From the NCBI GenBank assembly GCA_002255045.1, contig NJEE01000026.1, forward strand, positions 1 to 34,553: a DNA stretch of 34,553 bases, in the 5' to 3' direction. The position numbers and the translations under genes were made by a program. The DNA is from Candidatus Bathyarchaeota archaeon ex4484_205 (GTDB lineage Archaea > Thermoproteota > EX4484-205). Below, piece after piece: positions 19,466 to 33,474 of the stretch (positions are counted from its first letter, which is position 1; each line of letters starts with the position of its first letter). The notes beneath the pieces were generated by a model. It was not told where the DNA came from and ran no database searches. It was given only the letters and a program-made list of their open reading frames with translations.

Positions 19466-20037
19466 ATAAACAAAGAGATCTATATAAAGAAATAATCGAG
19501 TTATGGAGAAAGGAAATAGAAACTTCTGAAGTAGTTGAAATACCGGAAGGTTTCCTAAAAAATTTATCTGAATACATGCTTCATGAACGGAGAAGCAATT
19601 CATTAAGAGAGAGACAGAACATTGCTACTATATTGAAGGAAAAGGAATTAGAAATTGTGAGTATGATCCTTAAAGATCTATTTGAAATTAGAGAGGAGAA
19701 AATACGATACTATTTTCTTATGAAGAAAGAGAAGATATCCTTAGAGAGTTCCGATGATTACTTCCTACTTGATAAGATCCATGAAACCATTCAGGAACTT
19801 TCTAGAAGTATAGAGAATATACTTCACGGATCCTTTGTAAAAGAGGAAAAGTTGTTGAAAAGGATTAGAAGGATAGGTATAGTTAAAAAGGAAATCCCGA
19901 AATATGTAGATGGAGATGGAAGAGCATATGGCCCATTTAAAGTGGGGGATATTGTAAGTCTGCCACAGCGTGAGTTCGCCATTCTTATGTCTCAAGGGTA
20001 TTTAGAGGAAATAAAAATATACAAATGGTTGAAGTAA
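19462..20037 (+). CDS. gins51: GINS complex subunit Gins51
   Basis: Part of the archaeal CMG-like replicative helicase assembly. The 191-residue protein has an N-terminal helical A domain and a C-terminal B domain (YVDGDGRAYGPFKVGDIV, then LPQREFAILMSQGYLEEI), the domain order of Gins51/Sld5-Psf1 rather than Gins23. It overlaps priS by four bases. Its last few codons (TTG AAG TAA) lie inside the first copy of the 65-bp duplication that extends into rpl44e. Confidence 0.88.
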   Translation: MNKQRDLYKEIIELWRKEIETSEVVEIPEGFLKNLSEYMLHERRSNSLRERQNIATILKEKELEIVSMILKDLFEIREEKIRYYFLMKKEKISLESSDDYFLLDKIHETIQELSRSIENILHGSFVKEEKLLKRIRRIGIVKKEIPKYVDGDGRAYGPFKVGDIVSLPQREFAILMSQGYLEEIKIYKWLK

Positions 20038-20157
20038 GTATATAAGTCTCCCAAGGAGGAAGAAAAAATAATGAAAGTACCAAAGAGTATAAGTTGAAGT
20101 AAGTATATAAGTCTCCCAAGGAGGAAGAAAAAATAATGAAAGTACCAAAGAGTATAA
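20028..20157 (+). repeat. Perfect 65-bp tandem duplication across the gins51/rpl44e junction
   Basis: Bases 20028-20092 and 20093-20157 are identical over all 65 positions, with no spacer. Each copy carries the last codons of gins51 (GTTGAAGTAA), a TATA-like AGTATATAAG, a strong ribosome binding site AAGGAGGA, an ATG and the first seven codons of rpl44e. The gene now has two promoters and two start regions in series. The lack of any difference means the event is recent, or that it is an assembly artefact. Confidence 0.97.
20071..20097 (+). pseudogene. Truncated 5' copy of rpl44e, an eight-codon upstream frame
   Basis: In the first copy of the duplication the rpl44e start codon and seven codons are followed by AGT TGA, giving the peptide MKVPKSIS. 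It has the same ribosome binding site as the real gene (AAGGAGGA, 20053-20060) and ends 38 bases before the true start at 20136, so it would act as an upstream open reading frame on any read-through transcript. Confidence 0.85.
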
Positions 20158-22420: not shown

Positions 22421-25062
22421 TCATGGAGAGATAGGTTTGGTGATAGGATAGAAGGAGAGTTGGGAGCAAGATACTGAGGCAGTTGCAGGCTTTATTATCT
22501 CATTTGGAGAGTTCTCTGCCTCAACATATATTGCAAATTGTAGATCACCACTCACGTCTTTTCGATCTATTTGATATACGTCTATAGGTTGACCATTTAG
22601 CAAGTGGAGTATAACAATATTATCATTCTTTTCCCTGATTTCAAAGGTATGTAAACCTATGGTAGCAGGGATACTTAGAATGTTTTTATCTAGGAATTTG
22701 AATAATATGGAGGCTGAGGCATTTAGAGGACCCCCCTCTTTTGCAGCACCCATCTCCACGAAGACAGAGGTTATATTGACCGAGACACCCCAATTATCAC
22801 CTATATAATGGGTGATATAGGGAAGAGAAGAGTTGGTATTGTAAGATATGTTAGATCGGGAGGAAGATGTAGAAATTTGGAACGGACCATATGTTACATT
22901 ATAATTCACTTTACAGATTACTACCATTGGAATATTGTAGGCGATATAATCATTTAATGAGTCAAACCAGATTTTTCCGGATGAACGCCATACGATCGTG
23001 AAGTGGTTGCCTAGTGAAACTAGGTTTTTTACTTGTGGATAATTATTTCCAAAGACTCCCTCGATCATAATACGTGTGAGAAGAGTATCTCTACGTGGAA
23101 GCCAACGTACAACTCGTTGGTAATTTTGACGACCACCCCATCTGTCATAGACACCTAAGTTTACAAGTTCTGTGAAAAGATTCTTATCCCCAAATCTCTG
23201 TAAAGTTAGATTATGATATATATTCTCACCAGCTATTGGGATGTTATATCCTATTTCAGCCATCCATATCCATTTGACTTCTTCTCCACCCCATGCACCT
23301 ATATCCCATCCAATTGGTGAGAACACAAGAATATAAGACACGTTATATTTCTTTAGAAGAGGTAAAGCAAGAGTATCATTACCCATAAAGATTCTACCAA
23401 TTACAGCTATTTGGGTGCTATTTATTGTCGCATTATCTGCGAGTGAAGGACGGTCCCCTACGCCAGTTATCCAATAACCATAGTCCCACCAAGATAATAT
23501 AACAGAGCCGGGAGGGGTATTATCTCTCAACCAACCCAATGCCTCCAGCCAATCAGGGGCATATGTCTGATAAAGGGATGCTCCTGCAATGGAGACAGGG
23601 GTACCAATTCTCGGCTTAGCTAGGGAGATAGAGATGTAAGAGAAGGAGAGGATGAGGAGAACGATGGATACTACAATGTAGGTAGAATATTTTTCTGACT
23701 TCTCAGTGGGGAGTCTTCTTTTCTTCTTTATGCGTATCTTTGGCTTATAGGAGAGCACAGACTTCGCCAATGAAATTAATTCATGGATCCCCTGTGCACC
23801 CAGAATAGCAACAAAGGGAGCAAGAATAAGACCAATTCTAACCATCGTAGATGCGAAATAGATAGAGAGTAAAAAGCCTAGAGTGACAGTTATTTTCCCT
23901 TCATCTGGATGAAGAAAATTCAGGAAGCTTGCCAATAGGCCTAAAAGCAGAAGAAAACCGTGATCTTGAAACAGGGAGAACCATGTGGATACCTTGTGTT
24001 CTGCAACAGACTCCACAATCGGAATATAGAGACGTGAGGCAGGATTCAATATGGCGTATAATTTCTTTATCAGACCACCAAAGAGACCAGTATAAATTGA
24101 CAGATAGGCAAACAGAAGAAGAATGGGAATTATTGAAAGTAAGATAAATTCACGTCTTATTCTTAATCTGTTTAATATAGATGTTTTTTGAGTTAGGATG
24201 AAATCCAGAGATAGGTATATGGAGAGAACTAGAACTGGGATGAAAGTGACTGATGTCACCATAGAGAGACCCGGACGAGGAACTGAGAGCCCTATTAAAG
24301 TACCAAGAGACATCGTGATGATATAAGAAACTGTTAAGTTTCTATAATTCCCGTGAAGGATAATTAGGAGTATAGATGTGGCTGTAAATAGGGCTATATC
24401 AAAAATATAGGCAGTCCAAGAGATAGCGAGGTAACCATATGTTAGACCAGCCAGAATACTGAAAATAATGGAGGAACGGAGAGATGACTCTTTATTTATA
24501 GCTTTGATGAAAAAAAGGGTTGAAAGAACTATAAGAAAAACCCCTATTGTTTCATGTTTGAAAAACCCAAAATATGTTCTTTCAATGTGGCCACCACTTA
24601 GGGCCAGAAAGAGAGAAATGCAGTAATGAGATAAACAGAAAGTACCGTTATCATACCAGCAACTGGGGGAAAATGAATTGTTACATCCAGTAGGGAGGTC
24701 TTAACGCCAATTATGTTTAGGAGTTGGTAAATTACTGCTGCGGTTAGAGGCAGACCAGGCGGAGAGGAGGCAGCAGCATCACGGCCATAGGGATACCAGC
24801 TCATGGTATCATGCCAATTAAAAAAAGCAAAGAGACCATTATTTGCTATATATTCAGCACATCTATAGTGCCAATAGGGGTCGAATTCAGAGAGATAAAC
24901 ACCCCATCTGAAAGAAACCATTCGAACTACTAGGGCAATCAATAATGTGAGGATGAGGGCAAAATAGTGTAAGATATTCTGCCTTGAAAGATTTAAGGGA
25001 AGAATATTAGTTACACGTGTCAATATATATGATGGCTCGAGATATTTCTTTAGTTTAACCAA
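22421..25062 (-). CDS. aglB: Oligosaccharyltransferase AglB/STT3, interrupted by one frameshift
   Basis: Membrane enzyme that transfers lipid-linked glycan to Asn of secreted proteins. Two frames together make the gene. The N-terminal frame (25062-24598) has the first membrane helix and the catalytic SEFDPYWHYR motif. The second frame covers 24598 to 22421, with many membrane helices and the acceptor-binding WWDYGYW motif, followed by a beta-rich C-terminal domain. The frames meet near 24601-24615, where the first reads TTC TGG CCC TAA and the second CTG GCC CTA. One added base would give about 880 residues, normal for the family. Possible causes are a sequencing error, a real mutation or recoding. 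Start is TTG at 25062; a TATA box suggests a leaderless transcript. Confidence 0.88.
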
Positions 25063-25082
25063 GCTTAGTTTGGTTTAGCATC

Positions 25083-25097
25083 ACAATTATATTAAAA
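25083..25097 (-). promoter_or_regulatory. TATA box of aglB
   Basis: GTTTTAATATAATTG on the minus strand is centred about 28 bases upstream of the TTG at 25062, as expected for a leaderless archaeal mRNA. This supports TTG as the true start. Confidence 0.5.
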
Positions 25098-25133
25098 CTT
25101 TATTCCCCCTTATCTAGAGGAGCCTTAATAAGA

Positions 25134-25143
25134 TTTTATATAA
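25134..25143 (+). promoter_or_regulatory. TATA box of the isoleucyl-tRNA synthetase gene
   Basis: TTTTATATAA is centred about 36 bases upstream of the ATG at 25175, leaving a leader of about ten bases that contains AAAGGT as a weak ribosome binding site. Confidence 0.5.
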
Positions 25144-25174
25144 TGGATTTCAGGATGAATGTAAAGGTAATATT

Positions 25175-28144
25175 ATGGAATTGGAAAAAGTGACGGTAGA
25201 TACACAATACGAGCCCCTTAAGTTTGAGAGGGAAGTGAGAGAGTTCTGGAAGAAACATGAGATACCTCGCAGGCTCAGGGAGCTACGTGAAAGAAAGAAC
25301 ATTGGATATATGGGGTATGTGGAAGGACCGCCTACCATGAACGGCTACTGTCATGTGGGACATTCCCGAGGCAGAGCAATCAAAGATTTATGGTATAGAT
25401 TCAACACAATGAGGGGATATTACATATTATATAGAGCAGGATGGGACACGCAGGGGCTCCCAGTAGAGCTACAGGCTGAGAAAGAGCTCGGATTCAGGAA
25501 TAAGAAGGAAGCACTGGAGAAACTGGGAATGGAGAAGTTTATAAAGGAATGTAAGAGAATTGTACATGAATATAATAAACATTGGTTAAGAGTGGATAAG
25601 AAGTTTGGGATGTTTATGGATTATGACAAGGCATATTGGACATATAAGGACGAATATATGGAAAGGGAATGGAGATATCTGAAGGAGGCTTGGAAGAAGA
25701 AGCTTCTGGGAAGAGGATATAGGGTAGTAGCTTATTGTCCAGGATGTCAAACATCCCTAAGTAATGCAGAGGTAGGACTCGGATATGAGGAAGTCCAAGA
25801 TCCCTCAATTCTTTTTAAATTCAAGCTAAGGGGAGAAGACACATATTTGATAATCTGGACAACCATGCCCTTTACACTAATCACCAATGAAATGGTGGCG
25901 GTACACCCCAACGCAGTCTATGCTAAAATTAAGGTTGGAAGTGAGAGTTGGATAATTGTGAAAAACCGTCTCGAGGAAATACTGAAGAAGTTGGGAGTGG
26001 AAGAGTGGGAGATACTAAAAGAGATATACGGGAGGGAACTTGAGGGGAAAAAATACGAATATCCATTTTATGAGGAAGTGCCAAAGCAGAGGGAGTTGGA
26101 GCACCAGAATAAGTATATCCATACAGTTGTATGTGAGGAGTTTGTAGATATAGAGACAGCGACTGGAATAGTACATCTAGCACCAGCAAATGGTGAGGAG
26201 GATTTTGAAGCTGCACAGAAGAGGGGGGTACCTATTTTCGTACCATATGATGATGAGGTCAAATTTACAGAGGAGGCAGGGAATTTTGGGGGAGAATTTG
26301 CGAGAGACTGCGATAAAATAGTGATAGAAAAACTGAGGAAAAAAAGTCTTTTGCTCCAGGAGGAGACCATAACACACGAATATCCAACTTGCTGGAGATC
26401 ACATCATAAATTGGTATGGTTAGCTAGAAATGAATACTTCCTATGGACGGACAAAATAAATGACACAATTGTAAAGGCTGCAGAGAAAGTTGAATATTTC
26501 TATGAACCCCCAAAGAACAGATTCCTCAGCTTTCTTCGTGAGGCCAAACCTTGGTGTATATCGAGAGAGAGAACATGGGGAACACCTCTTCCTATATTTA
26601 AATGCAAAAAATGTGGAGAAACTGAATTGATAGCATCAAGAAGGGAGATAATAGAGAGAGGTGTGAGACTCCCAGATGGTGAAGATTTTGAACTTCATAG
26701 GCCGTGGATAGATAGAATAGAGCTACGTTGCATCAAATGTGGAGGGATAATGAAGAGGGAACCTTTCGTACTTGATACCTGGCACAATAGTGGTGCTGCC
26801 CCTTATGCGAGTCTTAGTGATGAGGAGTTTGAGAGGTACGTACCAGTAGAGTTTCTGGTGGAGGGAATAGATCAAACAAGAGGATGGGCGAATACCTTAC
26901 TCCTCTTACATGTAATACTAACGGGAAAGGCAGAGCCACCCTACAAAGCATTTCTCTTCTACGGATTAGTGTTGGATAGAAAGGGAAGAAAGATGGCGAA
27001 GAGTTTAGGGAATGTAGTACTTACAGAAGAGGTAGTAGACAATCATTCAGCAGATTTGTATAGATTTTATCTACTTTGGAAGACAGCTCCAATCGAGAAC
27101 ATGAACTTCGATATAGAGGAGATGTGGAAAAGACCTTACCAGGTTTTAAATACATTATTTAATCTCAATAAGCTCTTTCTGCAGAATGCCGGATATGACA
27201 ACTATACTCCATTGAAGATAGAGAATATCAAACGTTCCTCATTGAGGGTGGAGGATCTTTGGATATTATCGAGGTTACAGGGAGTAGTAAAGATTGTGAC
27301 GGAGAGTTTTGAGAAGGCCAGATATCATGTTGCATTGCGTGAAATGGAGAAATTTATAATAGAAGATTTGAGCAGAAAGTATATACCAATTATAAGAAGG
27401 GATCTATGGGAGGAAACAGAGAAGGCAACAGAGAGGAGGAAGATAATTTATACAGTACTATGGAAAGTTCTAAGAACACTTAATAGATTGCTGAATCCTG
27501 TAGCTCCCTTCCTCATAGAGGCAATTCATCAAAAAATTCATAGGATATTTGATAGAGAGCTACCTGAGAGTATTAATTTCGACAACTGGCCGGAGGTGGA
27601 GGAGATATGGATGAACACAGAGCTGGAGAAGGTGATGGAACAAACTTTCAAAATAATTGAGAGTATCCTCGCAGCGAGGCAGAATGCAGGAATTAAAAGA
27701 AGGTGGCCTTTGAAGTGGGTGAATATAGAGACAGATATGAATATAATGCCTACATTAGAGGTCATAAAGAGACTTACCAATGTCAAAGAGGTACTACTCA
27801 ATCAGAAGATAGAGGAAGAGAATGTAGAAATCGTTGAGGGGGATAAATATAAGATTTACTTATTTGTAGCAAGGGATGAGGAACTCATTTACGAGGGACT
27901 GGTCAGAGATATCGCTAGGAGGATCCAAGCACTCCGTAAAGAGAGAGGATATGAACCCACATATATACTTAGTATGGTGGAGATTTATGGAATAGAGAAA
28001 GAGTTAAGGAGATTAGAGAGGTATAGGGTGGAGTTAAAGAAACTTGTGAGAGCAAGAGAAGTAAAATTTGTAACTGAAAAAGAGGGAAATGAGTGGAGAA
28101 AATACAAGGTAAATGGAAAAACTATAGAGATAAGAATACAATAG
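25175..28144 (+). CDS. ileS: Isoleucyl-tRNA synthetase
   Basis: Charges tRNA-Ile. The 989-residue class Ia synthetase has the HIGH-type motif HVGH (residues 60-63) after EGPPTMNGY, the Ile-type AGWDTQGLPVE, an editing domain (LIIWTTMPFTLITNEMVAVH), a zinc site in FKCKKCGETEL, and a C-terminal anticodon-binding region with an RRWPLKWV block. The signature loop is KMAKS (near residue 606) instead of KMSKS, a mild variation. Length and motifs favour IleRS over ValRS or LeuRS. It is divergent from aglB. Confidence 0.95.
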   Translation: MELEKVTVDTQYEPLKFEREVREFWKKHEIPRRLRELRERKNIGYMGYVEGPPTMNGYCHVGHSRGRAIKDLWYRFNTMRGYYILYRAGWDTQGLPVELQAEKELGFRNKKEALEKLGMEKFIKECKRIVHEYNKHWLRVDKKFGMFMDYDKAYWTYKDEYMEREWRYLKEAWKKKLLGRGYRVVAYCPGCQTSLSNAEVGLGYEEVQDPSILFKFKLRGEDTYLIIWTTMPFTLITNEMVAVHPNAVYAKIKVGSESWIIVKNRLEEILKKLGVEEWEILKEIYGRELEGKKYEYPFYEEVPKQRELEHQNKYIHTVVCEEFVDIETATGIVHLAPANGEEDFEAAQKRGVPIFVPYDDEVKFTEEAGNFGGEFARDCDKIVIEKLRKKSLLLQEETITHEYPTCWRSHHKLVWLARNEYFLWTDKINDTIVKAAEKVEYFYEPPKNRFLSFLREAKPWCISRERTWGTPLPIFKCKKCGETELIASRREIIERGVRLPDGEDFELHRPWIDRIELRCIKCGGIMKREPFVLDTWHNSGAAPYASLSDEEFERYVPVEFLVEGIDQTRGWANTLLLLHVILTGKAEPPYKAFLFYGLVLDRKGRKMAKSLGNVVLTEEVVDNHSADLYRFYLLWKTAPIENMNFDIEEMWKRPYQVLNTLFNLNKLFLQNAGYDNYTPLKIENIKRSSLRVEDLWILSRLQGVVKIVTESFEKARYHVALREMEKFIIEDLSRKYIPIIRRDLWEETEKATERRKIIYTVLWKVLRTLNRLLNPVAPFLIEAIHQKIHRIFDRELPESINFDNWPEVEEIWMNTELEKVMEQTFKIIESILAARQNAGIKRRWPLKWVNIETDMNIMPTLEVIKRLTNVKEVLLNQKIEEENVEIVEGDKYKIYLFVARDEELIYEGLVRDIARRIQALRKERGYEPTYILSMVEIYGIEKELRRLERYRVELKKLVRAREVKFVTEKEGNEWRKYKVNGKTIEIRIQ

Positions 28145-31200: not shown

Positions 31201-33474
31201 ATGTGGAGGACGTATTTCCCATATAGGGAAATTAGAAAATTTCAGGATGTATATGCAGAAAAAATTTACAATACCCTCAGAGAGGGTAGAAATATAGTTA
31301 TTCAGGCGGTGAATGGGCTCGGCAAAACGGCTGCAATACTTTCAGCAACATTACCTCTTGTTGAAAAGGTGGGGAACATAATTTATTTAACTCGGACAAT
31401 AATGCAGGGGACACATGTCCTGGACGAACTCCAAAAAATAGCTGAAAAAAGAGGCGTAGATGGAATTCTATTGGTTGGAAAGAATAAAATGTGCCCACTT
31501 AAGAAATTACGAAATTTAGCAGAAGATTATGACACCTTTAATACATTATGTGAATATCTTAGAAAGACCGGGAGATGTGAATATTTTTCGAACTATAGTG
31601 TAGATAAGCAGGAAGAATTAATGGGAGTAATATACCCGAGGGACTTAATGAAAATTTCCAAGGATAATGAAATATGTCCGTATTATCTTATGAGGAAGGT
31701 ATTATATGAGAAGAATGTAGTTGTAGCAAATTACCTACATGTTATCAATCCTTTTCTTAGGAGAATGTTGCCAGTTAGCCGAAATAGTGTCATCATTTTT
31801 GATGAATGTGTTACAGGAGATACACTTGTGAAAATAAACGAGAGATTTGTAGAGATAGGTAAATTCGTGGAAAAAATGTCTGAGAAGGGAAAGTACACCA
31901 TGGTTAAAGGTGATTTCCATATTGAAACGAGGGGAGGGAGGGGCAGTGCTTCTATTCGAGGCGTGTGGAGGAAGAGATATAGTGGAAGTATTTATAAAAT
32001 TTGTACTGACAAATGTACAGTAAGGGTAACAGAGAATACTTTAATATGGACTAGAAATGGATGGAAATATCCAAAATTTCTAAAGAAAGGGGAACAGATC
32101 TCCGTAATATTAGAAAAAGGAAAAAGAAAAATTGAGAGAATAAGTAAAATAGTAAGAGAGTGCAAGAAGGATGAGGATGTTTATGATTTGAATGTCTCAC
32201 CAACTCATTGTTTCTATGGAGGAGGAATTCTCGTCCATAATTCCCATAACCTCCCAGAAATTATAATGGATAATGCTGGAATTAAAATTAGGAGAGGAAC
32301 CTTTGAATTAGCACGAATCGAGGCTGAAAAATATGGATATGTGGGCATGAGTAGAATACTCTCTTACATCACTGAAGAAATTTGTCAATATACGGAAAAA
32401 GAGGAAGGAGTTCTTGAAATTCCAAAAATTCTTAGGACTATACAATTTAGGTACAAAACACTCCCCTTGATTGTTCAAAATATAATATACCTCGGGGAGA
32501 GAATAAAAATACTTAAATTTGATGAACAGAAACGTGCAGTCTCACACGTATACAAAGTTGGAAGATTTTTGGAGAGAGTGTTACATTTGAGGCCCTGGGA
32601 AGTATGTCTGCATTTTGAAGAAAATGGAATAAAGTATTTGGAGCTCCTTCCACTAGATCCTTCACCCTTTATGCGTCATGTGCTTCACAATATAAAAAAC
32701 GCTGTGTTCACATCAGGAACTTTAGAACCTATAGAGGCCTTTAATGAGATTCTTGGACTGAAAGGAAACAGTGAGGGAGTAGTTGTACCTTCTCCATATA
32801 CACCTGAAAGATTGTTAAAAGTGATAATAGAGGGAGTAACTACAAGATTCGAATTGAGAGATGAAAAAATGTTCAGACGAATCATAGAGTATATAAGCAA
32901 GATCGTGGAGCACACGCCTGGAAATGTTGGTGTATTTCCTGCTAGTTATGATGTTCTTGAGAGATTAAGAGATGAGGGATTGGAGGATTACATTGATAGG
33001 AAAGTCTTCTGGGATACACAAACTAATTTCTGGTTAAGCGAGACCACCATCAAAAGGTTTAAGGAGAAGGGGGATAAGGAGGGTAGTGTTTTGGTAACAG
33101 TGATTGGAGGAAGGGTGGCTGAGGGGGTAGATTTTCCAGCAGGAGAAATGAGAACAGCGATAGTAGTGGGAATACCCTTTGCATCACCTTCTGTAAAACT
33201 GGATGAAAGGGTGAAATTTTTAGAAAGAAAATATCCAGGAAGAGGAAAAGATCTGGGATATATACTTCCTGCAATAAGAAAGGCGTCTCAGGCAGCAGGT
33301 AGGGCGGTACGATCTCCTCGAGAAAAGGCAGCAATCTTCTTTTTAGACGAAAGATATAGAAATGGAAGATGCTTCAAATACCTGCCCAAATGGCTGAAGG
33401 AAAATATGATAATTATTAATCAGAAGAGAAAAGTTGCAATGATACTAAAGAACTTTTGGAGTATAGGAAGATGA
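31201..33474 (+). CDS. XPD/Rad3-like Fe-S DNA helicase interrupted by a mini-intein
   Basis: A superfamily 2 helicase of the XPD/DinG type. The extein has P-loop NGLGKT (38-43), four Fe-S cysteines (98, 117, 126, 159), an N-terminal DEAH box and C-terminal motifs (FTSGTLEP, GGRVAEGVDF, QAAGRAVRSPREKAA). An intein of 145 residues (203-347) splits the DEAH box between DE and SH; after splicing it reads DESH rather than DEAH. Without the intein the helicase is 612 residues, normal for archaeal XPD. ATG at 31201 begins MWRTYFPYREIRKFQ, typical. Confidence 0.93.
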   Translation: MWRTYFPYREIRKFQDVYAEKIYNTLREGRNIVIQAVNGLGKTAAILSATLPLVEKVGNIIYLTRTIMQGTHVLDELQKIAEKRGVDGILLVGKNKMCPLKKLRNLAEDYDTFNTLCEYLRKTGRCEYFSNYSVDKQEELMGVIYPRDLMKISKDNEICPYYLMRKVLYEKNVVVANYLHVINPFLRRMLPVSRNSVIIFDECVTGDTLVKINERFVEIGKFVEKMSEKGKYTMVKGDFHIETRGGRGSASIRGVWRKRYSGSIYKICTDKCTVRVTENTLIWTRNGWKYPKFLKKGEQISVILEKGKRKIERISKIVRECKKDEDVYDLNVSPTHCFYGGGILVHNSHNLPEIIMDNAGIKIRRGTFELARIEAEKYGYVGMSRILSYITEEICQYTEKEEGVLEIPKILRTIQFRYKTLPLIVQNIIYLGERIKILKFDEQKRAVSHVYKVGRFLERVLHLRPWEVCLHFEENGIKYLELLPLDPSPFMRHVLHNIKNAVFTSGTLEPIEAFNEILGLKGNSEGVVVPSPYTPERLLKVIIEGVTTRFELRDEKMFRRIIEYISKIVEHTPGNVGVFPASYDVLERLRDEGLEDYIDRKVFWDTQTNFWLSETTIKRFKEKGDKEGSVLVTVIGGRVAEGVDFPAGEMRTAIVVGIPFASPSVKLDERVKFLERKYPGRGKDLGYILPAIRKASQAAGRAVRSPREKAAIFFLDERYRNGRCFKYLPKWLKENMIIINQKRKVAMILKNFWSIGR
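31807..32241 (+). other. Mini-intein in the XPD helicase DEAH box
   Basis: In-frame insertion of 145 residues. It starts with the block A CVTGDTLV (Cys1) and ends with block F VYDLNVSPTHCFYGGG and ILVHN, followed by Ser+1 in the host. There is no homing endonuclease domain or LAGLIDADG motif. Block B reads VTENTLIWT, with Thr where most inteins have the conserved His of TxxH. Splicing would need that step to work without the His, or be slow. Confidence 0.93.

Follow-up and report, generated by a model that had tools for sequence, protein, structure and literature searches.

Programmed −1 ribosomal frameshifting has been described in archaea for fucA1 of Saccharolobus solfataricus (PMC8211752), and in Sulfolobus acidocaldarius the oligosaccharyltransferase AglB is an essential enzyme (PMC4287180). 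In the window, by which we mean the whole 34,553-nucleotide stretch of DNA that was analyzed, one AglB/STT3 gene is spread over two frames at positions 22421–25062 of the minus strand. It shares with other Brockarchaeota AglB genes, such as that of JAFNJA010000092.1 (L034), the order, the single copy and the motifs EFDPYWHYR, KHE, SVxEH and WWDYG. The gene is a broken copy of the STT3/AglB family: its frame is closed by a stop codon at 24598–24600, and 31 nt that the family retains are missing.

The N-terminal part (24598–25062, minus strand) runs for 154 codons from a TTG at 25062 to the TAA stop, its translation ending ...FPPVAGMITVLSVYLITAFLSFWP*, and it carries the first acidic motif as EFDPYWHYR. 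The C-terminal part (22421–24616, minus strand) lies in the −1 frame, contains ...LFLALSGGHIERTYFGFFKHETIG... and continues to the AglB end at 22421, with KHE, SVAEH and WWDYG along its length; from stop to stop this frame is open for 759 codons. In profile searches against Pfam STT3 (PF02516), the N-terminal part matches positions 22–117 (E 1.5e-15) and the C-terminal part positions 131–404 (E 1e-16), and both exceed the cut-off of 24.5, with scores of 58.0 and 61.9 bits. Translation of the ≈880 codons disclosed no second lesion. The sequence-only reading had described a single aglB split at a pyrimidine run by a −1 shift, with catalytic motifs in both parts, a 3′ frame open for more than 700 codons, no onset of decay and no classical slippery heptamer, and in all of these respects our analysis agrees with it.

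The second acidic motif, at about 24556–24564 on the minus strand, reads KHE instead of the DxE known from the family. In our AglB alignment, DxE occurs in 77 rows, KHE in 22 and RNE in 11; the KHE rows comprise all Brockarchaeota and a few others, and they are over-represented because the KHE peptide served as a contig-search pattern. As all Brockarchaeota relatives have the same residues, we regard KHE as a feature of the clade and not as damage. Both KHE and RNE amount to a charge reversal where the metal-binding Asp sits.

The window belongs to a bin of the Brockarchaeota order (1.28 Mb in 111 contigs, 90.4% complete, 6.9% contamination), of which we read 82 contigs, seven of them either almost complete or limited to their first 20 kb. 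Tetranucleotide composition splits these 82 contigs along its main axis into groups of 59 and 23 with a silhouette of 0.75, and the bin seems to be a mixture of two genomes. Brockarchaeota homologues give 93 hits in 676 kb of the larger group and 4 hits in 169 kb of the smaller, a contrast that stems partly from a reference set chosen partly around aglB; with the window set aside, 77 hits in 641 kb remain for the larger group. A second, intact STT3 gene lies on contig C95 (G000:C95, L127). The window falls in the group of 59 and C95 in the group of 23, and the C95 protein is only about 29–31% identical to Brockarchaeota AglB. We therefore rejected this paralogue as a functional back-up. Each of the other genomes of the order has one aglB (11/11), in one case cut between two contigs. 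Given this single copy across the order and the foreign character of C95, the window gene is the host's orthologue, and it is probably the host's only copy among the contigs of the bin.

To place the lesion, we aligned AglB relatives drawn from related genomes (a match in 46 of 61) and from 80 genome contigs. Between the flanking FPP and IERT anchors, the window gene has 98 nt, compared with 129 nt (43 residues, FPPFAGMLTALAVYLLGREVHGRTAGLFGALFVAFSGSHIERT) in its closest relative, a Brockarchaeota bin (L034/L005). The FPP to IxRT spacing is 42–44 residues (126–132 nt) in 106 of the 106 relatives that cover it: 43 residues in 90 rows, 44 in 14 and 42 in 2. In three further rows the segment is truncated by the end of a contig. 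Some genomes are represented by two rows, and 81 of the 43-residue segments are distinct. The net deficit in the window gene is thus 31 nt, or 10 1/3 codons. The sequence-only reading had held that the gain of one base is needed to join the frames and had proposed a comparison with relatives; that comparison contradicts a one-base lesion.

That the lesion exceeds a single base was first suggested by the STT3 profile, 13 positions of which (118–130) are skipped across only 8 bases of DNA. When we scored each codon against the family, the N-terminal frame tracked it through columns 15–16 (CTC ATT) and the C-terminal frame from column 30 (TCT CTC TTT), and the eight bases between them, ACTGCATT (24617–24624, minus strand), fitted the family in neither frame. 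The absent columns 17–29 hold the conserved stretch GKDLGGKxxGLL, which is alignable as far as human STT3A (6s7o), so that ≈13 residues are replaced by 8 nt. By hydropathy, the relative's segment is a polar loop flanked by two hydrophobic stretches; judged by known OST structures, the missing loop would be cytoplasmic and would join membrane helices 2 and 3. A model with two events, a gain of 5 nt in the CT run beside an in-frame loss of 36 nt, accounts for the residues about equally well when judged from the family columns, because the closest relative is 41–60% identical and does not give the ancestral sequence of this species. We do not prefer it, since it requires two events.

We consider it very likely that the window holds the single, vertically inherited aglB of a Brockarchaeota-order archaeon, broken as assembled by a net 31-nt loss of a conserved loop. 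This loss would take out GKDLGGKxxGLL from between two hydrophobic helices and, by the same stroke, throw the rest of the gene out of frame. As written, the gene would be expected to yield a truncated, inactive protein that no recoding rescues, and it is very probably non-functional.

One alternative places a sequencing error of a single base at the pyrimidine run TCTCTCTTTC. A single gained base does join both frames, and it seems enough because 31 equals 1 modulo 3, but the joined protein has 33 residues between the anchors and lacks the loop. In such a protein the two hydrophobic helices would run together, the frame being restored and the protein not. We rejected the one-base error on these anchor lengths and consider it very improbable; a sequence error was a sound first suspicion of the sequence-only reading, whereas its placement as a single base at the pyrimidine run fails, since the net loss is 31 nt. 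The same shortfall bears on programmed −1 frameshifting to a full-length AglB, which the sequence-only reading had thought possible. The direction is right, the two frames overlap from 24703 to 24598, and fucA1 provides one archaeal precedent. However, no X-XXY-YYZ heptamer is found in the N-terminal frame codons ATT ACT GCA TTT CTC TCT TTC TGG CCC TAA, an Rfam search of 24300–25200 returned no RNA family, and the relatives have open frames throughout, with no interruption at the aglB junction in any of them. A −1 shift anywhere in the overlap fails because the product remains without the loop, about 10 conserved residues short of a family protein. With the heptamer absent, the product not of family length and the interruption not conserved, we rejected recoding, whose probability we put close to nil. 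Nor do two separately translated subunits account for the locus, even though there are motifs in both parts and the 3′ frame is long. In the C-terminal frame, a scan that began at the last stop (24703) met no ATG, GTG or TTG before 24313, where the first start is an ATG, so that this frame is not startable near the stop. A separate C-terminal product would miss ≈100 residues, KHE among them, and the missing loop is in neither half. The split enzyme was rejected on the lack of a start codon, and we give it next to no weight; the absent heptamer and the absent start codon together argue against both recoding and a two-piece enzyme.

Two origins of the lesion carry most of the weight. The first, a local fault of assembly or consensus or else the assembler's choice of an allele from a minor strain, has in our judgment a little better than an even chance. 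It is favored by a gene without other lesions, by the essential role of AglB in S. acidocaldarius, by the retention of aglB in all relatives of the order and by a survey of frame breaks: 97 reference ORFs hit the bin confidently, and among these a clear mid-contig frame break is confined to the ORFs for aglB. Two other apparent breaks were dismissed, one (L209) being in fact two adjacent ABC-ATPase genes and the other (L199) lying where a contig of the foreign group ends. The second origin is a real deletion that inactivated the gene very recently and is either fixed or still polymorphic; it would make aglB a young pseudogene, and it is a serious possibility that falls somewhat short of even. 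Within the part of the bin that was read, neither a repeat nor a shared 16-mer points to a misjoin, real slippage could underlie a perfect 65-bp tandem duplication 4.5 kb away, and the only other STT3 in the bin is probably foreign, which would make the loss complete. Such a deletion is opposed by the same retention and essentiality of aglB; with no other lesion in the ≈880 codons it would need to be very young, and a minority allele in the population is equally possible. On balance, the artefact or minor allele is slightly favored over the deletion, and other readings of the lesion share a small residue of probability.

We looked for a long repeat as the cause of either a misjoin or a deletion by slippage and found none; the sole matches were a 15-mer elsewhere, attributable to chance, and a pair of 7-mers. 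The latter, CTTTCTG, occurs at 24642 and 24611 on the minus strand, 31 nt apart around the junction; that this spacing equals the count of missing bases is probably a coincidence. The 65-bp duplication (20028–20157, plus strand, 2.0 copies) lies at the 5′ end of the gene for ribosomal protein eL42, with a truncated gene start in the first copy. It may be real slippage or, equally, an assembly fault or an unmerged contig overlap. Perfect two-copy tandem repeats number nine in 845 kb of the bin, whereas the 1.06 Mb of archaeal DNA that served as a control has none. Seven of the nine, with periods of 21–51, are on contigs of foreign composition (G000 contigs C3, C4, C5, C17, C71 and C73; L137, L138, L139, L151, L204 and L206), and none of the nine has a period not divisible by 3 that clearly splits a gene. 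For both reasons we rejected the duplications as proof of bad assembly, and they leave the choice between artefact and real deletion unsettled. Elsewhere in the window, an XPD/Rad3-like helicase (31201–33474, plus strand) has a mini-intein inside its DEAH box, FDE/CVTGDTL...VHN/SHN, at about residues 203–349; TIGR01445 (intein_Nterm) scores above its cut-off there and PF14890 below.

Whether artefact or real, the interruption of aglB is not a new mechanism; a fault of assembly or a newly arisen deletion that destroys the gene is its most likely cause, rather than a hidden recoding signal. A candidate for archaeal programmed frameshifting is thereby removed. The observation that one base restores a frame is insufficient to diagnose a one-base lesion, and the anchor-to-anchor length must be compared as well. 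Were the deletion both real and fixed, which we think unlikely, a lineage of the Brockarchaeota order would very recently have given up its sole oligosaccharyltransferase and thereby the N-glycosylation that all its relatives keep.

Of the known systems nearest to the locus, the Brockarchaeota orthologues are 41–60% identical to its two parts, and it differs from them by a net 31 missing nucleotides and a broken frame, seen in no relative. Like fucA1, it is an archaeal gene in two overlapping frames with a shift in the −1 direction. The fucA1 gene, however, has the slippery sequence A-AAA-AAT, rare codons and a stem-loop (PMC8211752), and the window aglB lacks a heptamer; a one-base change gives a full-length family protein in fucA1, whereas 31 nt are missing here. 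The lesion resembles an assembly or consensus indel of a metagenome-assembled genome (MAG) in being isolated, in a single-copy and otherwise intact gene, within a fragmented bin with 6.9% contamination, although it is larger than the homopolymer slip usual in such genomes.
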